Positions 6,915 to 56,249 of a stretch of 64,000 nucleotides of DNA are shown piece by piece. The translations under genes were made by a program, and so were the position numbers. The DNA lies in NCBI GenBank assembly GCA_012728855.1, contig JAAYEH010000045.1:1-64000 (forward strand), written 5' to 3'. Positions within the stretch are counted from its first letter, which is position 1; every line of letters begins with the position of its first letter. The notes under the pieces were generated by a model. That model was not told the DNA's origin, ran no database searches, and worked only from the letters and a program-made list of their open reading frames with translations. This DNA is from Rhodopirellula sp. (lineage in GTDB: Bacteria; Planctomycetota; Planctomycetia; Pirellulales; Thermoguttaceae).

Positions 6915-8411
6915 TCAGACGTCTTCCGGCTTGGGCACCACGAACGGCGCGCGGTATTCGCGCGAGATCATCGCGTTGGCCTCGGCGTTGTCGAGGAACG
7001 TTTCCGACTTCGGGTCGAACCGCAACAGTGGGCCGATGGAAAACGGCGTCCGCTTCAGATCAACCCCGTACTTCTCCGTCTTCTCGACGATCCGCTCGAG
7101 CGTCGCCACGTTGTCGTCGAGGCTCTTGATCTGTTGGACCATCGCCTTCAGTTCGTCCACGGACACTTTGTGGTTTTCGCCCAGGTAATAAGAGATGTTT
7201 CCGATATGGCTCAGGCCGGCCGAGAGGTGGCCGCACAGCGCGTCGGAATTCAGCATCGATGGGTCGTTCGCCTGGACGGCGTCGAGGAAGTTGCCGAAAT
7301 GATTGCCGCTCCCCTTGAATTCGCGGATCTTATTCCCATCGGGATCGAACGCCGCAGCGTAGTCATAGGTCGACTGGACGAGATAGCCTTTCGATCCGTA
7401 GGAGATCACTCCGACCTTGGCGCCGAGGACATCCGGGGTATCCAGCCCGTAGGTCTCGAAGACAATGCACTTGTCGCCGTAGTCGTAGATGGTGGTTTCG
7501 ATATTGCCGGTATCGCCGGCGTCGACGAAGTTCGGATCCTTCATTTCGACGTCGTATCCCAGCCGGCCGCCCCAGGTGACCACCGATTTGGGAAAGCGGT
7601 CGATTCCGAGATGCCAGCGGGCGATGTCGGTCTGGTGCGGACCCTGATTGCCCAGGTCGCCGTTGCCGTACATCCGCTGCCAGTGCCAGTCGTAGTGAAA
7701 CTGGGGCCGGGTTAACGGCGCGGTCGGCGCCGGGCCGCTCCAGAGATTGTAGTCGACCTCTTTGGGAACTTCGTACTGCCCGAGAGGACCGATCGACTTG
7801 CGGCGACGATAGCAGAGACCGCGGGCGAACTTCACCTCGCCGATCCCCCCCTCCTGAATGAAGCGGACCGACTCGATGTTGGACGGATTCGACCGGCATT
7901 GCGTTCCGACCTGGCAGCACATGGCGTACTTCTTGGCCGCTGCCACCAACGCCCGCCCTTCATGAACATTATGGGATATCGGCTTTTCGAGGTAGCAGTG
8001 CTTTTTGGCCTGCATGGCCCAGACGCCGCACAGTGCGTGCCAGTGATTGGATGAGGCGTTGCTGACAACGTCGACCGCAGAGTCCTCGAAGGCTTTCCGC
8101 ATATCGGTGACGAATTTCGGCCGCACGCCCCCCTGCCGCTTGGCGATTTCGTCGCACTTCTTTTCCTTGGTGGAGTCGGGATCGCAGAGGTAGCGGATTT
8201 CGGTCCGCGGATCCTTTACCCACTCCGCGCAATGGGAACCCCAGCCCCGGCCACCGACACCGACGACGCAGACGCCGATCTTCTCATTGGCGCCGACGCG
8301 GGCGGCCGCCTGAGGAGCTGTGAGATGGAGCACTCCGGCCGACCCGGCCCCGGCCGCGGCGATGGCCAACATCGAGTCTTCCAAAAAACGCCGTCTTGAA
8401 ATGCCGTTCAT
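6915..8411 (-). CDS. Gfo/Idh/MocA family oxidoreductase with Tat signal
   Basis: MNGISRRRFLEDSMLAIAAAGAG signal; IGVCVVGVGGRGWGSHCAEW; EKPISHNVHEGRAL. Confidence 0.92.
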   Translation of the reverse strand: MNGISRRRFLEDSMLAIAAAGAGSAGVLHLTAPQAAARVGANEKIGVCVVGVGGRGWGSHCAEWVKDPRTEIRYLCDPDSTKEKKCDEIAKRQGGVRPKFVTDMRKAFEDSAVDVVSNASSNHWHALCGVWAMQAKKHCYLEKPISHNVHEGRALVAAAKKYAMCCQVGTQCRSNPSNIESVRFIQEGGIGEVKFARGLCYRRRKSIGPLGQYEVPKEVDYNLWSGPAPTAPLTRPQFHYDWHWQRMYGNGDLGNQGPHQTDIARWHLGIDRFPKSVVTWGGRLGYDVEMKDPNFVDAGDTGNIETTIYDYGDKCIVFETYGLDTPDVLGAKVGVISYGSKGYLVQSTYDYAAAFDPDGNKIREFKGSGNHFGNFLDAVQANDPSMLNSDALCGHLSAGLSHIGNISYYLGENHKVSVDELKAMVQQIKSLDDNVATLERIVEKTEKYGVDLKRTPFSIGPLLRFDPKSETFLDNAEANAMISREYRAPFVVPKPEDV

Positions 8412-8598
8412 CGATACCTCTCGCAAGAAAACGTCCGAAGTTAGAATTGCCGATCACCTCCATCCTACCATCAGCGGACGGTGTTGCACAAATGCGTCCT
8501 CTTCCCGCGGTCAGCAGGGGTGTGTATAATTCATTTGTGGCATTCGGGCGAGGGACAGGACGTCGATCGCCGTGGGACTCAGCTTTGCGAGATTCGAT

Positions 8599-10337: not shown

Positions 10338-11399
10338 TCACGCCGAACACAAGACCGGACCAAGCTGGTCCAGTTCGGACACGTCTTCCAGAGCGATGCT
10401 CGACCAGAGCCGCCCTCGCGCGGTAATCTTCATCAACGATATCAAGGAATCCACCTGCTCCTTCGGCAGCGGAACCCAAACACTGGGTCTCTTGTCTCCA
10501 AAGTTCTTGAACCGGCACACCGCCCAAAAAGGCTTTCCGGGTAGGTGAATCTTGAAAAACGCCACGGTGTCCTCAAATTCCACCGGGCGATTTGGCCCCA
10601 GAAGCCGTTGGACAACCCTCAGGCCATCGAGTTCCGCCTTGGTTGTCTCGACGGATCGTCTCTTCTTCGGCTCATCGTCGGCCACTTGCTCCGCGCCATC
10701 TTCGCCAAGCACCGAGGACAAACGGTATTGTTTTGCCCAAGCGTCAATGGCGGCCTTCAGTACCGGCTTCCAACTCTCAACCACACTGGCAACGAGATTC
10801 CTCGTCTCGATATTTGCCACGGCGAGCCTGATAAACTCCGGCGAGGGCTCCAACAAACGTGCAAGCTCGTCGACGAGAAGATTCTGTGCTCGTCGCCTCT
10901 GCGCGAACGTGCGCATAAGCTCCAGGTTGAACCGAGACTTCTGAAGCAAGGTAAGGAAATCCCAAGGCGGTTCGTCGTCGCCCAGTATTTGCCATTCCAC
11001 GAAGGGCTTCTTGTCCATCACGTTGTCGTGCTCGATATCCGAAAAGAAACGCCAATGCACTCCGTTGGTGAGAATACCCAACTTGGCCGCCGGAGCCTTT
11101 GCAAAGTAGTCGCCAAGTTGCTCGTCGTAGCCCGAAAGTCTGCGGTCAACCTGTTTGGCTTCGACAAAGAAGACGGGACTTCCGTTCTGGAAGAAGGCGT
11201 AGTCCACCGGCTTGGCCGAGCGCCCACGTCCGAAGTCTTCGCGATGCTCCGGAACGCATTCACGTGGATCGGTCACGTCATAACGGAGCAATGTGAACAG
11301 CGGCTCAATTAGGCTTCTCTTGGTCGCCTGCTCGTTTCCTTTACAGTGTTCGGCCAAATCTTTCACTCGTTTGACGTAAGCAACGATGGCGTCCCGCAT
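10338..11399 (-). CDS. orphan HsdR N-terminal-domain (type I restriction-like nuclease fold) protein
   Basis: KPVDYAFFQNGSPVFFVEAKQVDRRLSGYDEQLGDYFAKAPAAKLGILTNGVHWRFFSDI; D...ExK motif; no helicase, HsdM or HsdS neighbour. Start placed at internal ATG (MRDAIVAYVK). Confidence 0.8.
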   Translation of the reverse strand: MRDAIVAYVKRVKDLAEHCKGNEQATKRSLIEPLFTLLRYDVTDPRECVPEHREDFGRGRSAKPVDYAFFQNGSPVFFVEAKQVDRRLSGYDEQLGDYFAKAPAAKLGILTNGVHWRFFSDIEHDNVMDKKPFVEWQILGDDEPPWDFLTLLQKSRFNLELMRTFAQRRRAQNLLVDELARLLEPSPEFIRLAVANIETRNLVASVVESWKPVLKAAIDAWAKQYRLSSVLGEDGAEQVADDEPKKRRSVETTKAELDGLRVVQRLLGPNRPVEFEDTVAFFKIHLPGKPFWAVCRFKNFGDKRPSVWVPLPKEQVDSLISLMKITARGRLWSSIALEDVSELDQLGPVLCSA

Positions 11400-11530
11400 G
11401 TCAGATCTCCCGAAGACGGAATTGTTGACCGTTAGCCCCACCGGAGAATTGGGTGAGTGTCCCCGGCCGTGCAGCAGTTGGCAATGGTAGCACACCACCC
11501 ACACGAACCGCAAGCCTCTTCAGTTCCCCT

Positions 11531-13699
11531 CTAACAACCCCGCACCAGCCGATCGACCACCAACTGGCGGAACTCGGGCGAGAGGTTGGCGAAATAGGCG
11601 GTGAAGCCCGTCACGCGCACGACAAGGTCCGGATACTGCGAGGGATCTTTGTGCGCGGCCAGCACCTGCTCGGCGTCGACGATGTTGATGTTGAACAAGG
11701 TGCCGCCCAGGGCGAAATGGGTTGTGATGAGACTGGTGATCGTGTTGACCGCTTCGTCGGACTGGGCGATGCATGGATCGAGTTCAAGCTGGATGGGCGC
11801 CGTGTTGCCGTAGCCAGGTTGAATGGCGGCAATCGCCTTGACCATCGCCGTGGCCGCGCCGTCGTCGCGGAATCCCGGCCGGGGATTGGCGCCGTGCGCG
11901 ATTGGTTCGCCGGCGCGGCGGCCGTCGGGCGTGGCGCCGAGTTGCTTGCCCAACCGCAGTGTGTCGGCCCAGGAAAACCAGCCCGGGATCATCCGCCGTC
12001 CGCCCGGCGTGGGCTTCCCGACAACCAGCCGGGTAAACAGTCGCGAGACTTCCAGAGCCCAGTGATCGCCGAGCGAGTCGCCTTCGCCGTAATGCGGCGC
12101 CGTCCGCATCATCAGCCGCACGCGCTCGCCGTCGACGCCCCGGTAATCGTTGCGCAGGTGTTCGGCGAGTTCCTCCCAGGCGATCCGACGCTGCTCGGCC
12201 ACGCGGCACTGGAGTGCGGCCAGCGAGTCGGCCACGTTGGCCAGGCCCGCCCCGTCGACGCACATGTTGTACAGGTCCACGCCGCCGTTGGTCACGTTGA
12301 GACCCCGCTGGATCGGACCGTGCGTGAGCAGATTCAGCAGCAGTTCCGGTTCGTTGAGGTGCTGGTGGTCGAGTTGCACGTCGATCCCTCGTGCCGTGCA
12401 AAGGACGGCCTTGCCGAGATGCTCTTCGAATCGCCGCCAAAGCGAATCGATGGAAGGGGCATCGGCTTCCGCCATCATCTCGTCGAAGGCCGCCATGAAG
12501 ACCTTGACCACATTGATCTTCACGGTGTCGTTCATGGTGTATTCGAGGCCCGGCAAGGCCATCCAGTTGCAGCCCACGGCGATCCGTTGGCGCGCCAATT
12601 CGGCCGAGTAACCGTTGCGCATGAAGCCCTCGACCAGGGCTTTGTCGCCTGAGAATCGCGGCCAGGCCTTGCGATCCTCGATGAGATACTCGACGCCGCG
12701 GCGCAACAGGCGCGGATCGAGACCGTCGTGGACGCGAATCGTGAGGTTGCACGTCGATTTCAGCCGGTGCGCCGCCTCCAGGATCAGGAAAGAAAGGGGA
12801 CTGGTCTGATCGTGCCCGTCGGAGGCAGGCCCGCCGAGCTGATAATAGTGCGGATCATTCAGCAGCAGGCAGGCCAGCAGGAAGATCGCGTCCTCGTCGT
12901 CGATGCGGCCTTCATCACGGTCCCGCTCGTAATAGGGGCGAAGCAACTCGTCAAGTTGCCCGCCCGCGCCGTCGCGGTTGTAAACCCGCGAGGCCATGTT
13001 AAACCAGGCGATCCATTGGCAGGCCTCGCGGAGCGTCCGCGGCGGGCCTTCGATCAGCCAGCGATTCACTTCGGCCATCTCACGGAGATTGGCCTCCAGC
13101 GCCGGGTCGGACTCGCGGGCCGTGGCTGCGTCGATCGCCTGGACCGTGCGGTGAATCCAACCCTGTACGGCCCGAATCACACGTTCTTCGGCCTCGTAAA
13201 ACTCCGCCTTTTCCGGCCCATGCTCCGCGCGGTGCTGCCGCACCTCGGCCAGCAGGCCGCCCCATCCCCGTGTGAGGCCGATCCGGTAGTCGGGCGCGAA
13301 GTGGGCGTCGTTGCCGATGCCGGAAATGATCCCGTAGCGATCCTGGTCCGGTCGTAGTTCGGGGAAATCGAACTCGGGCGGCCAGTTGCACTTCCGCATC
13401 CGATTCAACAGCACCATGTAACGTCCGGCCAACGCATCCATCGGGTCGACGTAAACCGGATGATGCCGCATCAAGTCGCAGAAATTGTCGGCCCAACCCT
13501 GCAGACCGTAGAACGAGCCGTTGGGATGGTTGGGCTTCGGCTGCCAGACGAAATCCTCCGGCGGCAGGACCATTCCGTAATCGTCCTCGTTCATGTAGCC
13601 CAGCCGCCGGAGTTTCTCCTGTGTCTGGGCCTCCTTGCGCCGGCGGAGGTGTTCCAGACGAGTCGCGTAGTCGAGTCGGTTTTGCAGTCCGAGTGCCAT
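11531..13699 (-). CDS. glycyl radical enzyme (pyruvate formate-lyase family), substrate unknown
   Basis: C-terminal glycyl-radical motif VRVTGFTAYF; active-site Cys region RIAVGCNWMALPG; adjacent GRE activase. Confidence 0.92.
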   Translation of the reverse strand: MALGLQNRLDYATRLEHLRRRKEAQTQEKLRRLGYMNEDDYGMVLPPEDFVWQPKPNHPNGSFYGLQGWADNFCDLMRHHPVYVDPMDALAGRYMVLLNRMRKCNWPPEFDFPELRPDQDRYGIISGIGNDAHFAPDYRIGLTRGWGGLLAEVRQHRAEHGPEKAEFYEAEERVIRAVQGWIHRTVQAIDAATARESDPALEANLREMAEVNRWLIEGPPRTLREACQWIAWFNMASRVYNRDGAGGQLDELLRPYYERDRDEGRIDDEDAIFLLACLLLNDPHYYQLGGPASDGHDQTSPLSFLILEAAHRLKSTCNLTIRVHDGLDPRLLRRGVEYLIEDRKAWPRFSGDKALVEGFMRNGYSAELARQRIAVGCNWMALPGLEYTMNDTVKINVVKVFMAAFDEMMAEADAPSIDSLWRRFEEHLGKAVLCTARGIDVQLDHQHLNEPELLLNLLTHGPIQRGLNVTNGGVDLYNMCVDGAGLANVADSLAALQCRVAEQRRIAWEELAEHLRNDYRGVDGERVRLMMRTAPHYGEGDSLGDHWALEVSRLFTRLVVGKPTPGGRRMIPGWFSWADTLRLGKQLGATPDGRRAGEPIAHGANPRPGFRDDGAATAMVKAIAAIQPGYGNTAPIQLELDPCIAQSDEAVNTITSLITTHFALGGTLFNINIVDAEQVLAAHKDPSQYPDLVVRVTGFTAYFANLSPEFRQLVVDRLVRGC

Positions 13700-13716
13700 C
13701 GGGAAGAGCCTCTGGA

Positions 13717-14649
13717 TTAGGAAGAAGCATATTGCTTGCGGACGCCAGCGCCGGCCACGGTAACGGCAAAGTTGGGACGCACGGCCCTCGCCGCCAGTGT
13801 CTGTAATTCAGCCGCCGTAGGTGAATGGAACCTCGGCGGCGGGCCGGCCAGTCCGAGGGCTTCGTACTTGCCTGTGCCCAGCGGATGATAAGGCAGGAGA
13901 TCATACTGTTCGACGCTGGCGAGCGTGGCCAAAAAATCAGCGATGGCCTCGATGTCGTCGGGCCGATTGTTGACGCCGGAAATCACGGGCGTTCGGATGA
14001 CCAGCGGTTTGCCGCAGTCGTCGAGTTGGCGGAGGTTTTCCAGAACCGGTGCGTTGGACATACCGGTCCAGGCCCGATGGGCGGTGTCGTCCAGCAGCTT
14101 GATGTCGACGAGGAAAAGGTCCACCAGCGGAACCAACTGGGCGACAACCTCCCAGGGCCAAGCCAGATTGGATTCGACCGCCGTGTGGATCCCCTCTCGC
14201 CGGCAGAGTTCGAGGATCGCCCGAGTAAACTCGGCCTGCACCAGCGGTTCGCCTCCGGAAATCGTTGCTCCGCCGTCCGGCTGGTAGAAGGGTCGATCTG
14301 AGAGCACCTCGGCGACTACCGTCTCGGCCGTGCGCGTTTCACCAACCCGTACCAGCGATTGGGCATAGCAGGTGTCGACGCACTCGCCACAGGCCACGCA
14401 ACGATCGCGATGATAGACGTGCCCTGCCGCCGTGAATTCGTGAGCGCTCTGTCGGCAGACCTCGGCGCAAGCCTTGCAACCGATGCAGCGCTCGGGAAAA
14501 ACCTGTATTTCCGGCTGCCGGCGATACGTCTCGGGATTGTGGCACCAAGGGCAGCGCATTTGGCAGCCCTTCAAGAAGATGGTGGTGCGAATTCCGGGCC
14601 CATCGTGGACCGAGAAGCGTTGGATGTGGGTGACGATTCCGCTGGCCAC
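13717..14649 (-). CDS. glycyl-radical enzyme activating protein (radical SAM with two 4Fe-4S ferredoxin motifs)
   Basis: FSVHDGPGIRTTIFLKGCQMRCPWCHNPE (CxxxCxxC), CIGCKACAEVC and CVACGECVDTC. Confidence 0.95.
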   Translation of the reverse strand: MASGIVTHIQRFSVHDGPGIRTTIFLKGCQMRCPWCHNPETYRRQPEIQVFPERCIGCKACAEVCRQSAHEFTAAGHVYHRDRCVACGECVDTCYAQSLVRVGETRTAETVVAEVLSDRPFYQPDGGATISGGEPLVQAEFTRAILELCRREGIHTAVESNLAWPWEVVAQLVPLVDLFLVDIKLLDDTAHRAWTGMSNAPVLENLRQLDDCGKPLVIRTPVISGVNNRPDDIEAIADFLATLASVEQYDLLPYHPLGTGKYEALGLAGPPPRFHSPTAAELQTLAARAVRPNFAVTVAGAGVRKQYASS

Positions 14650-14667
14650 AGACCCTCTCCTCGTTGA

Positions 14668-15738
14668 CTACTTCCAGAGGGAGGCGACCGGCGAATCGTG
14701 CTCGGCCGATCGGAGAGGCAAGCTCACGCCGACGCCTTCCCGCGCCGAGCGGATGGCGGCATCGAGAACCTCCTGCGTGTCGCGGCAGACCGCGGGCCGG
14801 CAGAGAGGATAGACTTCGCTCCCCGTTTCCAGGGCCCAGAGGAAATGGGCGGTGCCGTTGGCCATGTTCGGCGCGGGCGTGGGCGGCGAGATCTCTTCAC
14901 CGCTCGGCTGCTCTGCAGTAGTCCTCCACAAGCGTCCGCCTCTACCCGGCCCAAAGGTCACCGAACCCCGCTCCGCCCAGATCGTCGCCAGGTATCCGGT
15001 CACGGGCTGACCGACTTGTCCCCACGCCCCCTCGGCCGTGGCGATCGCGTGGGGATAACTCATGACGACGATGGCATGGTCTTCGACTGCCGGGGCTGTT
15101 TGGAGCCACTGACCGGCCACGGCCGTCACACGCGTGGGCCGGCCCAACAAGACTTGGGCCATGTTGATGCCGTAGCAGCAGAGATCGACCAGCACACCGG
15201 CGCCGTTCCGCTGCGGATCGAGGATCCACTCGCGGAACCAGGCGGAACACTCCACATCCGGTCCCCCGTGACTCGCGCGGTGCGTGAGCTGCCAGATGGC
15301 GCCGAACTCGCCGCTGGTGGCAATTTCCAGCGCCGCCTGGACCTGGGGGCGCCAGACGACGGGCCAGTTGATCATCAACCGCACGCCGGCCGCCTGGGCC
15401 GCGGCGATCAGCCCTTCGGCGCCTTGGAGGGTCGCCGCCATCGGCTTCTCGACCATGACGTGCAGCCCCTGCCGGGCCGCCCAAGCGCCGGCCTCCGCAC
15501 CTTGGGCGTTGTCGCAAAACACGTAAACCGCGTCGAGCGACTCTCGATCGACCATTTCACGGTAGTCCGGATAAGCCGCACATCCATATTGTTGCACAAC
15601 CCGATCCAGCAGCGCCTGGTGTGGGTCGGCGACGGCCGCGAGTTGCCCGTTATCCGACGCTTTCAGATCTTCGAGGTTGCCCCATACATGGTCGTGCGTC
15701 AGCCCTGCTACGCCGATTCGGTAGGTCTTAGCCATCAT
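14668..15738 (-). CDS. Gfo/Idh/MocA family oxidoreductase
   Basis: YRIGVAGLTHDHVWGNL...VMVEKPMAATLQGAEGLIAAA. Confidence 0.88.
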   Translation of the reverse strand: MMAKTYRIGVAGLTHDHVWGNLEDLKASDNGQLAAVADPHQALLDRVVQQYGCAAYPDYREMVDRESLDAVYVFCDNAQGAEAGAWAARQGLHVMVEKPMAATLQGAEGLIAAAQAAGVRLMINWPVVWRPQVQAALEIATSGEFGAIWQLTHRASHGGPDVECSAWFREWILDPQRNGAGVLVDLCCYGINMAQVLLGRPTRVTAVAGQWLQTAPAVEDHAIVVMSYPHAIATAEGAWGQVGQPVTGYLATIWAERGSVTFGPGRGGRLWRTTAEQPSGEEISPPTPAPNMANGTAHFLWALETGSEVYPLCRPAVCRDTQEVLDAAIRSAREGVGVSLPLRSAEHDSPVASLWK

Positions 15739-17131
15739 CGTGTCTCACGTTTGGATTCATCGCCGGTTGCCTGGCTCCATCCCGCTCACCACTCCACCAC
15801 TCCATCACTCCCTCCCCCCTCCCCCCTCCCCCCGCTCCCGTCTCATCGCGGAACCCCGCGGCCACCAGCACCGTGGCTGCCAGGCCGATCGCCGCGGCGG
15901 TGTACCAGAAGAGCGAATAGTCGAGTGTTCCGCCCGCGGGCGTATACCGCTCGGACAGCCAACCGTTGAGCGGGCCCGCTACCAGCGGGCCGACGCCCAG
16001 GATCACCATCATGAAAACGGTCTGCGCGGAGTAGCGGGTATCGGGCGGGGCAAGGCGGTCGACATAGATGAACCCGGCCGCAAAGAAAAAGGCGAAAGAA
16101 AATCCGTGAATCAACTGCGCGGCGACGATCAACTCCAACGGCAATTGTGTCGTGCCGAAAAATGCGTACTTGAGGAAGTAACACGAAGCGCCCAAGGCAA
16201 TCACCGTGCGAAAGCCCAGCCGGCTCAGTACCGGACCGAGCACCGCCAGGGCAAGAATCTCGGCGAATTGGCCGAGCGACATGGCGGGCATGATGTACGC
16301 GTCGGCCAGCCCGATCGCCGCCAGAAACTTGCTCATCTGCACGAAGTAGAGGCAATGGATCACGCTCACTACCAGCGCCGCGGCGACCAGCACCGCAAAC
16401 GAACGTCGCCGCACGAGGGCAAAGGCGGCTGCGAATGCCAGCTTTCGCGCCGCCTCGCGCTTGGGCGGCGTCCGCGGCAGCCCGAACCAGCAGAACAGCG
16501 CATAACCGACCGACACCGCGCCGGCGACCCGTACCGAATCGACCATCCTGGCCGGAGAGTCGGGCAACTCCCTGCCGGTGAAGAAGGGGGGCAACCAGCG
16601 GAATTCCAAGTCCGACTGTAGCCAGAGCATGGGAAAGACCCATGCCACGGTAATCCACGCCAACGTTCCCACCGCCCGCACGCCCGGAAATTGCCGCTTC
16701 GGGTCCGGCAGGTGCGCCAAGGCCAGCGAGTTGGTCAGCGAGAGGGTGGGGGCGAAGAGAACGGCGTAGGCAATCGACAGCCACAGCCAGGCGATATACG
16801 TCGTCTGATAGGCCGTGACGAACTTGACTGCGCCGCCGACAGCTAAGAGCACGGCCAGGCACCGCGAGGGCGCCATGTAGCGATCGGCGATCTGGCCGGC
16901 AATGAACGGAGCGGTCAATGCGCCGATCGCGCCGGCCACGGCGATAATCATGCCGATCTGGAAATCGCTGAAGCCCAGCCCGCCCACGGCACGGTCGGCC
17001 GAGAGGAACCGGGCGGCAATCGGCAGCCACAGGCCGTAGACGGCGTACTGCAGGAACATCATCACATAGAGCCGCGGGTCGACGCCGCGCGGCGAATCGG
17101 TCGCTTCAGTCGTGTTGGAATCGTTCTTCAC
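15728..17131 (-). CDS. MFS transporter
   Basis: Multiple hydrophobic helices; MMFLQYAVYGLWLPIAARFL...GQIADRYMAPSRCLAVLLAVGG; 3' end overlaps the start of the next Gfo/Idh gene. Confidence 0.88.
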   Translation of the reverse strand: MKNDSNTTEATDSPRGVDPRLYVMMFLQYAVYGLWLPIAARFLSADRAVGGLGFSDFQIGMIIAVAGAIGALTAPFIAGQIADRYMAPSRCLAVLLAVGGAVKFVTAYQTTYIAWLWLSIAYAVLFAPTLSLTNSLALAHLPDPKRQFPGVRAVGTLAWITVAWVFPMLWLQSDLEFRWLPPFFTGRELPDSPARMVDSVRVAGAVSVGYALFCWFGLPRTPPKREAARKLAFAAAFALVRRRSFAVLVAAALVVSVIHCLYFVQMSKFLAAIGLADAYIMPAMSLGQFAEILALAVLGPVLSRLGFRTVIALGASCYFLKYAFFGTTQLPLELIVAAQLIHGFSFAFFFAAGFIYVDRLAPPDTRYSAQTVFMMVILGVGPLVAGPLNGWLSERYTPAGGTLDYSLFWYTAAAIGLAATVLVAAGFRDETGAGGGGRGEGVMEWWSGERDGARQPAMNPNVRHDDG

Positions 17132-17134
17132 GGC

Positions 17135-18379
17135 TCAGGCAATTCCATAGCGATCGTTGATCGTCCGCTGGTACTCTTCCAATGTCTCGGCGGCCACCTC
17201 GTGAACCTCCACTTGCCGGCCCGCATTGGCGGCTTCGAGCACCGCAAACGCGCAGGCCAGGCTTTGCAGCGCGTCGCGTCCGCTGGTTTCGGGCGGTCGG
17301 CGGCGACGAACCGCCTCGAGCCACTCGTATTGCGCCAGGGCGAAGGCGTCGGTCAATCCCAAGGGAAAGTCGCGAGCCTTGCGATCCGGCGGGCAATGTT
17401 GCTGGTACAGCTCGGCCAGATTGGCCGTCGTACCGTCGTCCAGCGCGACTTCCTCGCCCGAGACGCGCCCGCGCGACGCGTAGTAGACGTCGCCCGTGCC
17501 CGGCATCGTCCCTCCGCCGCGACCGGCCCAGCTTGCCGTCAGCTCGCCGGTCACTCCGGCGGCCGTGGCGAAGGAGGTGTAGACGGTATCCTCGGCGTCG
17601 CACTCGACGCGCTGGGTCAGCCGCTGCTGCTCGTCGTGGCCCCAGCGGACCGGTTCGACAATGGCGGTGCGAGCCTGGATGTCGCAAATCTCGCCGGCGA
17701 GATAGCGGATCAAGTCGAAGCGGTGTACGCCCACGTCCAGCGCGATTCCGCCGGCCTCGTCGCGGCGGTGGCGCCAGGGAGTGTCGGCCACGACGCGGTC
17801 CGGCGCCCACCGCGCCCCGACGCTACCCATCAGCACCATCTGCAAGCTGCCCACGAGCCCCGAGTCGAACAGCCATCGAAGGTGGCGGGTGCGCGGCATG
17901 TATCGGCCGCTCTGGAAGACACCGAGGATCCGCTCGCGGGCCTCGGCCCATTCGCACATCCGCCGGGCGGCGCGGATCGTGACCGCCATCGGTTTTTCCG
18001 TGAGCAGATCCTTGCCGGCCGCCAGCGCAGCCTCGGCCACCTGGTGGTGCAGGGCGTGGCTGGTGAAATCATTGACCGCCGTGATCGGCGCTTCGTCGAT
18101 CATGCGGCGGAAGTCGCTATAGACCCGGACCTCGGCGTCGTCCTGAAAGTCCGACACGTACTGGTCGTCCACGGCCAGCGGATCGCCGGCGAACTGGCTT
18201 ACGGCCGATCGCTGCGGGGGGCCTTCTCCGCGACGGACGTACATCCTCGCTTCGTCTTCCCAAAGCGAACAGAGGGCCGTGATGCGAAAGTCGTCCACGC
18301 CCGCCTCGCGGAGCAGCCGATAGCCGCGCAAGTGCGCGGCCATGATCCGCCCGCAGCCCACAATGCCGATCTCGATCAT
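17135..18379 (-). CDS. Gfo/Idh/MocA family oxidoreductase
   Basis: MIEIGIVGCGRIMAAHLRGY...DLLTEKPMAVTIRAARRM. Confidence 0.9.
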   Translation of the reverse strand: MIEIGIVGCGRIMAAHLRGYRLLREAGVDDFRITALCSLWEDEARMYVRRGEGPPQRSAVSQFAGDPLAVDDQYVSDFQDDAEVRVYSDFRRMIDEAPITAVNDFTSHALHHQVAEAALAAGKDLLTEKPMAVTIRAARRMCEWAEARERILGVFQSGRYMPRTRHLRWLFDSGLVGSLQMVLMGSVGARWAPDRVVADTPWRHRRDEAGGIALDVGVHRFDLIRYLAGEICDIQARTAIVEPVRWGHDEQQRLTQRVECDAEDTVYTSFATAAGVTGELTASWAGRGGGTMPGTGDVYYASRGRVSGEEVALDDGTTANLAELYQQHCPPDRKARDFPLGLTDAFALAQYEWLEAVRRRRPPETSGRDALQSLACAFAVLEAANAGRQVEVHEVAAETLEEYQRTINDRYGIA

Positions 18380-18403
18380 CGGGCTTGTTCCTTTCGACGG
18401 CGA

Positions 18404-19729
18404 TCAGACGAAGCGGGTAACGCCGGGCATCGCCACGGGATACTTGCCGTCGGGCCCGGGCAAGGTCGGCGGCGCGGCGTCGAAGGCGTAGCGCTGGGGC
18501 GAGAGGTCGAGCTTCGACTGCGTCATCTCCTCCCAGGTAATCTCCTGGCCCGTGTAACCGGCCGTGCGTCCCAGGATGGCGACCAGCGTGCTCTGGCACA
18601 TATAGTCGCCGTTGTTGATGCACTTGCCCGCGCGGATGGCGGCGAACAGTTCGTCCTGTTCGACCTGGTGCATGGGGCGGATCGCTCCCTGAGTCGCCTT
18701 TCGCACCGAGAAGGAAGAGAGGTCGCCGGCCTGTTGGCCTTGGGTCCAGTTGGTCTCGCCCTCGATGCGCCCCTTCTGCAAGTCGCAGCGTCCCTTGGTT
18801 CCCAAGAGCACTTCGGAGTAGTCGTTGAAACAGCCGGGCTGCTGCCGGGCAAAGGCGTACATCCGCGTGCCGTTGGCATACTCGTAGACGACCGCGTGGT
18901 GGTCGTAGATGTCGCCATACTTCGGATCGATGCGGATCTGGCGTCCGCTGGTGGCCCAGGCCTTCAGGGGCGGCTTGTCCCCAAGCGCCCAGGAACACTT
19001 GTCGATGCCGTGGATCTGCTGCTCCACGTTGTGGTCGCCCGAGAGCCAAGTGAAGTAATACCAGTTGCGCATCTGGAACTCCATCTCGGTCCACTCCGGC
19101 TGGCGTGGGCGGTGCCAGAGCGAGCCCAGATTGCGGGTGGTCTGCACGGCCAGGATGTCGCCGATCGCCCCGTCGTGGACCCGCTTGATTGTCTCGCGGA
19201 TCACCGTGTCGTAGCGCCAGCAGAGGCCCGAGACGACGCAGAGATTCTTCTTCCTGGCCAATTCGCAAGTCGCCGCCACGCTCCGCACCCCGGTCGCATC
19301 GACACCCACCGGCTTTTCGGCGAAGACGTGCTTGCCTGCGGCGATGGCGGCGGCCAGGTGCGACGGGCGGAACTGGGGCGGGGCGGCCAAAAGAACCACG
19401 TCCACTCCGCTGGCGATCAAGTCCTTGTACGCATCGAAGCCGACGAAGCAGCGGGCCTGATCCACGTCGACCTGATCCGGGTGCAGCTTCTTAAGCTGTT
19501 TGAGCGATCCCTCGATGCGGTCGGAGAAGGCGTCGGCCAGGGCCACCAGTTTCACGCCCGGATCGGCGTTGATGGCATTGGAAGCGGCGCCGGCCCCTCG
19601 GCTTCCGCAGCCGATCAGGCCGACCTTGAGGATGTCGCTGCCGGCCGCGTGGGCGCTGCGATGGACGGCCAGGACCGTGCCGCCGGCCACGGCGGCGGTG
19701 CGCAGAAAGTCACGACGCGAGACGTTCAT
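18404..19729 (-). CDS. Gfo/Idh/MocA family oxidoreductase with Tat signal
   Basis: MNVSRRDFLRTAAVAGGTVLA; VGLIGCGSRGAGAASNAI; HVFAEKPVGVDATGV. Confidence 0.93.
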   Translation of the reverse strand: MNVSRRDFLRTAAVAGGTVLAVHRSAHAAGSDILKVGLIGCGSRGAGAASNAINADPGVKLVALADAFSDRIEGSLKQLKKLHPDQVDVDQARCFVGFDAYKDLIASGVDVVLLAAPPQFRPSHLAAAIAAGKHVFAEKPVGVDATGVRSVAATCELARKKNLCVVSGLCWRYDTVIRETIKRVHDGAIGDILAVQTTRNLGSLWHRPRQPEWTEMEFQMRNWYYFTWLSGDHNVEQQIHGIDKCSWALGDKPPLKAWATSGRQIRIDPKYGDIYDHHAVVYEYANGTRMYAFARQQPGCFNDYSEVLLGTKGRCDLQKGRIEGETNWTQGQQAGDLSSFSVRKATQGAIRPMHQVEQDELFAAIRAGKCINNGDYMCQSTLVAILGRTAGYTGQEITWEEMTQSKLDLSPQRYAFDAAPPTLPGPDGKYPVAMPGVTRFV

Positions 19730-19885
19730 GATATCCTCCCGGAACGCGTAGACGAATCAGTTCGACGGTCCCTGGATTCTCGCATCCGGCGCGAAGGAGC
19801 GTCAATGTGCGATTGCGCAAAAAAGGTAAGTATTTGCGACACGGCGGCGCGGAAGGTAGGATGGATGTGGGAAGGCATCGCGCGC

Positions 19886-19980
19886 AAGGGGGTCGGGAGT
19901 CTTTTTCCGTATCGGCGCCCAGTGCGCTGGACATGCCGAACGGCGGTGAGGCCGATACGGAAAAAGACTCCCGACCCCTT
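19886..19980. repeat. Family A long inverted repeat, copy 1
   Basis: AAGGGGGTCGGGAGTCTTTTTCCGTATCGGC (19886-19916) pairs with GCCGATACGGAAAAAGACTCCCGACCCCTT (19951-19980). Confidence 0.95.
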
Positions 19981-20023
19981 CTTGGTTGCGACACTGATTT
20001 CAATGCATTCGTGCAACGACCCA

Positions 20024-21214
20024 ATGAAGCCACGGCGCAAAACTTCGATCGGCCACGACACGCCGCACGTGGCGGTCTTGGTCGATACGGCCACCGGCTG
20101 GGGCCGCCGGCTGGTGCGAGGGATCCTCAACTACGGCCAACACGGCCCGTGGTATTTGTGGATCAAGTCGGGCGGCCAGGACTCGCCACTGTGGCTGCCG
20201 CCCGGCTGGCGCGGCGACGGGATCATTGCCCGCGTCGGCACCCGTACCGCGGCGCGGCGCGTCGGCGCTGCGGGCGTGCCGGTGGTCAACATCTCGGCCA
20301 TCGAACTGCCCGGCGTCGAATTTCCTCGCGTGGCCACCGATCTGGAGGCGGCTGGCCGCCTGGCCGCCGAGCACCTCTTGGACCGCGGTTTCGCCCACTT
20401 TGCCTATTATGGGTTGGCGCACCGTGCCTACGTGGATCGCCACTACCGCGGCTTCGTGGAAGCGGTTTCTTCCGTCTGCGAGGACTGCCCGTTTTACGGA
20501 ACGGCATCCGACTCGGGCAGTGGAGCCCGCACCGCCTGGCTCACGCGGCAGCGAGGCCTATGGCGGTGGCTCAAGACACTCGCCAAGCCGGTGGCCATCG
20601 TCACCTGGACAACCGAGTTGGGCCGAGAATTGATCCAGGCCTGCCGGCGGGAGAATCTCCTGGTTCCGGAACAGGTCGCCGTGCTGGCGGCCGACAATGA
20701 CGATCTGCTTTGCGAGGCATGCGCTCCATCTCTTTCCGGGATGGCGCTGACATCGGAACGGATCGGCTTCGAAGCGGCCAAACTGCTGGACTGGCTGATG
20801 CATGGCGGCCGCTCGCCCCAGGCTCCACTGTTGTTGGAGCCGACGGGAGTCGTCGCGCGTCAGTCGACCGACACTTTGGCGGTCGACGACGCGGATCTCG
20901 CCCGCGCCGTGGCCTTTATCCGCGGCCACGCCACCGATCCGATCCAGGTGCAAGACGTGCTCCGCGAGGTGCCGGTCTCGCGGCGCTGGCTGGAGCGACG
21001 TTTCCGCGAAGTGCTGGGACGCGGTCCGGCTGCCGAAATCCGCCGCGTGCGTCTGGAGCGCGCCAAACGTTTTCTGGCCGAGACCGACCTGCCGGTCCCG
21101 GAAGTGGCCCGGCTGGCCGGTTTCGGTTCTCGCGAATACCTGGCCGCCGTCTTCAAGGCCGAGGGCCAACTCAGTCCCCGGCAATACCGTAAGCGAACCC
21201 AGGCACGTCGCTGA
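20024..21214 (+). CDS. XylR-like AraC-family transcriptional regulator (periplasmic-binding-like sensor domain + AraC HTH)
   Basis: HVAVLVDTATGWGRRLVRGILNYGQHGPWYLW sensor; VPVSRRWLERRFREVLGRGPAAEIRRVRLERAKRFLAETDLPVPEVARLAGFGSREYLAAVFKAEGQLSPRQYR HTH. Real start ATG 20024; the 1337-aa ORF track entry extends through antisense sequence. Confidence 0.92.
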   Translation: MKPRRKTSIGHDTPHVAVLVDTATGWGRRLVRGILNYGQHGPWYLWIKSGGQDSPLWLPPGWRGDGIIARVGTRTAARRVGAAGVPVVNISAIELPGVEFPRVATDLEAAGRLAAEHLLDRGFAHFAYYGLAHRAYVDRHYRGFVEAVSSVCEDCPFYGTASDSGSGARTAWLTRQRGLWRWLKTLAKPVAIVTWTTELGRELIQACRRENLLVPEQVAVLAADNDDLLCEACAPSLSGMALTSERIGFEAAKLLDWLMHGGRSPQAPLLLEPTGVVARQSTDTLAVDDADLARAVAFIRGHATDPIQVQDVLREVPVSRRWLERRFREVLGRGPAAEIRRVRLERAKRFLAETDLPVPEVARLAGFGSREYLAAVFKAEGQLSPRQYRKRTQARR

Positions 21215-23309: not shown

Positions 23310-23408
23310 AAGGGGTCGGGAGTCTTTTTTCCGTGTCGGCCGCGCAGCGCTTCTGGGTACAGATAAGTCTTCTCCGGCCGACACGGAAAAAAGACTCCCG
23401 ACCCCCTT
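23310..23408. repeat. Family A long inverted repeat, copy 2
   Basis: AAGGGGTCGGGAGTCTTTTTTCCGTGTCGGC ... GCCGACACGGAAAAAAGACTCCCGACCCCCTT. Confidence 0.95.
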
Positions 23409-52778: not shown

Positions 52779-52877
52779 AAGGGGTCGGGAGTCTTTTTTT
52801 CCGTGTCGGCCGGAATTGGCTCATCCATATGGAAAACGCTGCCCGGCCGACACGGAAAAAAAGACTCCCGACCCCCT
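52779..52877. repeat. Family A long inverted repeat, copy 3
   Basis: AAGGGGTCGGGAGTCTTTTTTTCCGTGTCGGCCGG ... CCGGCCGACACGGAAAAAAAGACTCCCGACCCC. Confidence 0.95.
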
Positions 52878-56220: not shown

Positions 56221-56249
56221 CGACATGAAAAAAGACTCCCGACCTCCTT
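56209..56249. repeat. Family A repeat, right-half fragment
   Basis: GCGTTGCCCGGCCGACATGAAAAAAGACTCCCGACCTCCTT matches the right half of copy 3. Confidence 0.85.

Follow-up and report, generated by a model that had tools for sequence, protein, structure and literature searches.

New clades of glycyl radical enzymes (GREs) have repeatedly revealed new anaerobic pathways, as for the breakdown of choline, hydroxyproline, isethionate and anhydro-sugars. In the GRE eliminases, the glutamate of the GCxE motif deprotonates the substrate hydroxyl (PMC6453916). The window analyzed here, a stretch of 64,000 nucleotides from Rhodopirellula sp. (contig JAAYEH010000045.1), carries a gene cluster composed of an oxygen-sensitive GRE, its activase, three Gfo/Idh/MocA oxidoreductases (Gfo/Idh-A, -B and -C), a major facilitator superfamily (MFS) importer and a divergent XylR-like regulator. 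This GRE shares with the eliminases (glycerol/propanediol dehydratase, CutC, HypD, IslA and HpsG/HpfG) the superfamily, the radical machinery and a dedicated activase, but their conserved glutamate is a tryptophan in the clade to which it belongs. The superfamily is known; the clade is real and conserved, and its altered active site is without a residue considered indispensable for elimination by GREs. Since this branch without the catalytic glutamate is found repeatedly beside an unusual pair of Gfo/Idh enzymes in three groups of bacteria, it probably marks an uncharacterized anaerobic route of sugar breakdown.

The 1,5-anhydrohexitol-6-phosphate GREs of Escherichia coli, PflD and YbiW, share with the window GRE a PFL-like fold, the thiyl cysteine, the C-terminal glycyl radical and the equivalents of His133 and Asp250; PflD also presents, like the window GRE, an aspartate 14 residues after the cysteine. 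However, both keep the GCxE motif, receive phosphorylated substrates from a phosphotransferase system (PTS) (PMC12441222) and are outside the clade of the window GRE. The aminoacyl radical enzymes (AAREs; PMC11528403) are, as the clade described here, uncharacterized branches of the GRE superfamily with an altered catalytic residue. In AAREs the radical glycine is replaced by Ala, Ser or Thr, whereas in the window clade this glycine (Gly698) is intact and the glutamate near the cysteine is changed.

For the Gfo/Idh enzymes, the closest described systems are the keto-sugar pathways of levoglucosan, of C-glycosides (DgpA), of 2,7-anhydro-Neu5Ac (RgNanOx) and of the glucuronide 3-dehydrogenase, in which a ring hydroxyl is oxidized with NAD, an elimination follows and the product is re-reduced. 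In RgNanOx, the oxidation of the hydroxyl acidifies a neighboring position and permits the elimination, and the ketone is then re-reduced (PMC7535918). The PF01261 TIM barrels of several loci of the clade are a further likeness to these pathways, which differ in that their elimination is of the acid-base type; none of them was reported with a GRE in the literature searched. Searches for GREs together with MocA, inositol or Planctomycetes found no description of such a system.

Family placement of the GRE

The window GRE was compared with the NCBIfam equivalogs HypD, CutC, HpsG, HpfG, IAD, HPAD and PFL, and no GRE equivalog reached its curated cut-off, all the scores being far below it (best, 216 for a cut-off of 1109; HpsG, 199 for 1000; HypD, 175 for 1100; CutC, 152 for 1050). 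The AF2 model (pLDDT 85, pTM 0.87) presents the GRE fold, and its best Foldseek match was PflD (8yjo, E=9e-38), which was also the closest solved relative by sequence profile in the PDB search (8.7e-82, ~22% identity).

A tree of 94 GREs, including PflB, PflD and YbiW from E. coli, as well as HypD, CutC, CutC-like and other planctomycete GREs, was constructed with FastTree only and with limited taxon sampling; it grouped the window GRE in a monophyletic clade of 59 members, with support of 0.96 and a stem of 1.29 substitutions per site. This clade holds no reference, as PflB, PflD, YbiW, CutC and HypD are all outside it. The GRE belongs to no known-function family among those tested, in agreement with the preliminary description made from the letters of the window, which had not recognized the cluster as a characterized GRE pathway. 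Assignments to PflD, HypD, CutC, glycerol dehydratase, HpsG or PFL were ruled out by scores, motif and tree. The clade is apparently a widespread, undescribed branch of the GREs.

Active-site residues

The glycyl radical motif RVTGFTAYF, with Gly698, is present in the window GRE, and the thiyl cysteine, Cys377, is included in the sequence VGC-N-W379 and aligns with the catalytic cysteines of PflD, glycerol dehydratase and CutC. The glycine at the radical position and the thiyl cysteine occur each in 59/59 members of the clade, and both are retained in the other GREs too. The gene adjoining the GRE encodes a cognate activase, whose score is above the TIGR02494 cut-off. Since Gly698 and the clade motif RVTG[FY] are intact, the clade is not among the radical enzymes with Ala, Ser or Thr, and the classification of the window GRE as an AARE was ruled out.

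The most telling fact, absent from the preliminary description, is the change of glutamate to tryptophan across the clade. In the clade motif GC[N/H/Q]W, the residue two positions after the thiyl cysteine is Trp in 59/59 members, while Glu is found there in 31/35 other GREs; therefore, the clade need not use the known GRE elimination chemistry. When the profile was aligned with glycerol dehydratase and PflD, His133 and Asp391 (Cys+14) proved to be retained. Glu386, Asp282 and Asp482 are invariant in the clade only, and His602 and Asn670 are near-invariant at positions occupied by Asp/Glu and Gln in other GREs. Judging from the alignment, these new residues may take over the acid-base roles, or Trp379 may stack on a sugar ring.

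An ordinary C–O eliminase, a diol dehydratase or a PflD/YbiW-like enzyme opening anhydro-sugar rings, would have moved its base to another side chain, and the pathway would closely parallel anhydroglycolysis, with unphosphorylated 1,5-anhydro-hexitols that a Gfo/Idh enzyme similar to anhydrofructose reductase would make or consume. PflD is the best match both by profile and by fold, glycerol dehydratase and PflD also carry Asp at the position aligned with Asp391, Gfo/Idh-B has 1,5-anhydro-D-fructose reductase as one of its closest relatives, and a pathway for anhydro-sugars exists in E. coli (PMC12441222). We consider this explanation improbable, however, given the low identity to PflD, the position of the clade apart from PflD and YbiW in the tree, the loss of the glutamate that both keep, and an operon without PTS, kinase or FsaA-like aldolase.

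Also unlikely, in our assessment, is that the base is dispensable as a result of C–C bond or other non-elimination chemistry (lyase, decarboxylation or isomerization) on a keto-sugar or sugar acid. The tryptophan present in all the members of the clade is compatible with it, as are the known non-eliminase GREs, which also have no plain GCxE eliminase site; PFL carries a Cys-Cys pair. In addition, UxaE adjoins the cluster in one relative (L137). On the other hand, the thiyl cysteine is not followed by another one, unlike that of PFL, and the closest relatives of the window GRE are all eliminases.

Gfo/Idh partners

In Gfo/Idh-A, the GxGxxG/A dinucleotide loop is replaced by G12-L-T-H15-D-H17. 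The histidine pair (HxH) is invariant in 23 GRE-linked Gfo/Idh relatives, whose loops vary as GCWHPH (Victivallales), GFSHMH (Clostridia) and GFSHPH (L137). In the genome of the window, 50 other Gfo/Idh genes were inspected, and none has this pair at the loop position. The EKP lysine (E97-K98) and the active-site Asp185 are kept in Gfo/Idh-A and are invariant among the HxH relatives. The AF2 model of this protein (pLDDT 91.5) has the Gfo/Idh domain fold; GFOR, DgpA, aldose-aldose oxidoreductase and levoglucosan dehydrogenase are the nearest solved folds, and NAD-dependent glycosidases also match.

In sequence, Gfo/Idh-B is closest, among solved proteins, to GFOR, 1,5-anhydro-D-fructose reductase and scyllo-inositol dehydrogenase, and Gfo/Idh-C to inositol dehydrogenases. 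These recurring dehydrogenase partners narrow the substrate search to oxidized sugars or cyclitols.

Conservation and genomic neighborhood

The gene order of the operon is the same in the loci L032, L036 and L056, and a truncated locus, L035, is consistent with it. This recurrence indicates that neither misassembly nor chance produced the cluster; the contamination estimate of the window assembly is 8.9%. In L032 and L056, from Pirellulales-type genomes, the identity to the seven genes of the window ranged from 63% to 88% per gene, and the divergent position of the regulator is kept. Matches to L056, a Pirellulales metagenome-assembled genome, and to L039, Planctomycetes bacterium syqfu, locate the window within Planctomycetota, close to Pirellulales. 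The MFS gene is also found in L032, L036, L056 and L137. Locus L137, from the Verrucomicrobiota side, presents in one run a Gfo/Idh with a twin-arginine translocation (Tat) signal, a further Gfo/Idh, an HxH Gfo/Idh, an MFS gene, the GRE, the activase, a TIM barrel and UxaE, which is the parts list of the window in another phylum; its Tat-Gfo/Idh, HxH-Gfo/Idh and MFS proteins are each ~29–30% identical to their window counterparts.

The preliminary description had read six closely spaced or overlapping minus-strand genes, facing a divergent XylR/AraC-like regulator, as a dedicated inducible pathway for a sugar or cyclitol. All these genes are present, with agreeing Pfam identities; the gene set is conserved in the genomes of relatives, even across phyla; and the resemblance of the Gfo/Idh enzymes to sugar and cyclitol oxidoreductases, as well as the carbohydrate enzymes recurrent in the neighborhood, fits the proposed substrate type. 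As a whole, that interpretation is partly supported.

Clade-level matches were found in 5/392 sampled planctomycete genomes, the window's own genome included; in 20/388 genomes sampled from the phylum to which Victivallis belongs (~5%); and in 28/391 genomes sampled from the class that includes a Clostridia metagenome-assembled genome (~7%). Victivallis vadensis DSM 14823, a cultured isolate, carries a GRE of this clade (L045:9977-12127), which makes the question directly testable.

The neighborhood scan, in a range of 8 kb, included 69 distinct loci of the clade, 35 of them flanked by 3 kb or more on each side (well-flanked), and control GRE loci, most of which came from the same genomes or from related ones. 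A Gfo/Idh gene was present in 25/35 well-flanked clade loci and in 3/14 control loci (Fisher p=0.003, an indicative value, as the loci are non-independent); two or more Gfo/Idh genes were present in 18/35, and the HxH type in 18/35. With short flanks, Gfo/Idh genes were found at 28 of 61 clade loci and at one of 34 loci of other GREs, this one being a truncated member of the clade. PF01261-like TIM barrels occurred in 11 of the 35 well-flanked loci against 1 of the 14 controls.

Carbohydrate neighbors of the clade also include xylose-isomerase-like TIM barrels of PF01261, a ManA-like isomerase, glycoside hydrolases (GH38, GH28, GH106 and GH2), FGGY and PfkB kinases, UxaE, aldose epimerase and sugar-sensing regulators. 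Taken together, the recurrent partners point to carbohydrates or cyclitols. A loose coincidence, with no shared pathway, in which an orphan GRE/activase pair often ends up in carbohydrate islands where Gfo/Idh genes abound, seems very unlikely to us. It would account for the ~29% of well-flanked clade members without Gfo/Idh nearby, and planctomycete genomes are saturated with these genes; but Gfo/Idh genes are enriched over other GRE loci, a single rare subtype (HxH) recurs, the genes form same-strand operons with gaps of few bases, and the association is conserved in three groups of differing genome composition.

In three loci (L130:6153-8045, L131:397-2289 and L133:1542-3434), a PF01261 TIM barrel is fused to a Gfo/Idh and adjoins a GCxW GRE; the domains were checked in L130, and L131 and L133 were grouped with it by similarity. 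This fusion suggests consecutive pathway steps. A conserved protein of ~255 aa is encoded directly after the GRE in L130 (11142-11900), with relatives in ~10 loci and a ManA-like protein usually next; it had no Pfam or NCBIfam match. A sialic-acid reading, suggested by a NanA-like lyase, BNR domains and an AGE epimerase in the vicinity of some relatives, was set aside because these are not common to all the loci, and a mannose theme (GH38 and ManA-like) applies only to part of the clade.

Proposed pathway

We propose, giving it about an even chance, that the cluster is an inducible anaerobic catabolic operon, with a shared sugar or cyclitol pathway and radical lyase chemistry; the exact order of the steps is put forward with less confidence. 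The substrate would be sugar-like and carry no phosphate: a glycoside, an anhydro-sugar, a polyol or a cyclitol. The XylR-like protein would sense the sugar, with activation of the operon; Gfo/Idh-C, for which Tat export is predicted, may act on the substrate outside the cytoplasm and modify it; and uptake would be through the MFS protein. The cytoplasmic Gfo/Idh-B and Gfo/Idh-A would convert a hydroxyl to a ketone and/or later reduce a carbonyl, in a redox-neutral sequence.

The activase would generate the GRE radical at Gly698, from which it would pass to Cys377, and the thiyl would take a hydrogen from the (keto-)sugar, with cleavage of a C–O or, less likely, a C–C bond. Proton transfer without the glutamate could occur via Asp391, Glu386, Asp482 or His133, with Trp379 possibly against the sugar ring; or no base would be necessary with a pre-formed ketone, which would explain why the glutamate is dispensable. 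Oxidation and reduction by the Gfo/Idh enzymes would then bracket the elimination, a step that the GRE would make radical-based.

More speculatively, and with considerable doubt, the GC[N/H/Q]W clade may be a distinct class of GREs that cleaves pre-oxidized (keto) sugars or cyclitols without a glutamate base and that, with its HxH and canonical Gfo/Idh partners, constitutes a previously unknown, widespread anaerobic carbohydrate route of oxidation, radical cleavage and reduction in Planctomycetota, Verrucomicrobiota/Victivallales and Clostridia.

Some observations weigh against the proposed operon function. The loci L033, L037, L039, L040, L127, L135, L151, L168 and L169 have no Gfo/Idh nearby, and therefore the GRE-Gfo/Idh pairing is frequent, not obligatory. 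A GCHWC subclade (L151, L160 and L166) is found in non-sugar contexts, which, together with those loci, means that members of the clade may differ in function. The Gfo/Idh proteins of Victivallales and Clostridia are only 20–30% identical to those of the window, and therefore the substrate may differ between lineages. In addition, the genome of the window has at least 150 Gfo/Idh genes, a family very numerous in planctomycetes; no kinase or aldolase gene is included in the operon; and the roles of the active-site residues rest on sequence alignment.

Gene organization

The seven genes of the cluster are intact open reading frames, and each identity was confirmed by Pfam (Table 1). The gaps between the minus-strand genes are of 3–24 bp, and the MFS and Gfo/Idh-A genes overlap by 11 bp. 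The TAT_signal score of Gfo/Idh-C, 20.5 bits, is slightly under the curated cut-off of 22.7. The regulator has the XylR-type composition, a periplasmic-binding-protein-like sensor joined to an AraC helix-turn-helix. The window GRE is the sole PF02901 gene of the genome (11.3 Mb, 721 contigs).

Table 1. Features of the GRE cluster, with positions in the window.
Feature	Positions	Strand	Domains and remarks
GRE, 722 aa	11531-13699	minus	PF02901 (PFL-like) E=2.4e-93; Gly_radical E=4.6e-13
GRE activase, radical-SAM and ferredoxin domain, 310 aa	13717-14649	minus	Radical_SAM, Fer4; TIGR02494 337 bits, cut-off 174
Gfo/Idh/MocA oxidoreductase A (HxH subtype)	14668-15738	minus	PF01408, match begins only at profile position 17
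MFS importer, Nuc_H_symport family	15728-17131	minus	PF03825 E=1e-72
Gfo/Idh/MocA oxidoreductase B	17135-18379	minus	PF01408 and PF22725; canonical GCGRIM loop, EKP, D-x3-H motif
Gfo/Idh/MocA oxidoreductase C, Tat signal, export predicted, first operon gene	18404-19729	minus	PF01408; SRRDFLRT motif; TAT_signal E=4e-4
Divergent intergenic control region	19730-20002		28-bp perfect inverted repeat
XylR-like regulator, divergent	20003-21214	plus	Peripla_BP_3 PF13377 E=6e-30; HTH_18/AraC PF12833 E=4e-19

The gene directly downstream of the GRE (10338-11402, minus strand) encodes a nuclease-like domain of the HsdR N-terminal type (PF04313); among the compared loci it was found only in L001/L002, from the window's own genome, and is outside the conserved cluster. 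A fourth Gfo/Idh gene, non-operonic and with a GFO_IDH_MocA_C2 domain (PF19051), is located at 6915-8426 on the minus strand.

Promoter-region repeat

The divergent region holds a perfect inverted repeat with 28-bp arms (19889-19916 and 19951-19978). It is one copy of a dispersed palindromic repeat, with arms beginning GGGGTCGGGAGTCTTTTTC, located in the window at 19889-19978, 23312-23405, 52781-52875 and 56228-56246; at two of these sites the arms are perfect, of 28–33 bp and ~30 bp apart. Exact 19-mer arms occur 174 times in the genome, and a reversed control had none. Since it is part of this dispersed family, the inverted repeat is not evidently an operator, and this role was set aside. 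An IS200-like Y1 transposase gene (PF01797; 24041-24958, plus strand) starts ~0.6 kb from the palindrome copy at 23312-23405, and its product is possibly a repetitive extragenic palindrome (REP)-associated tyrosine transposase that mobilizes the repeat family.

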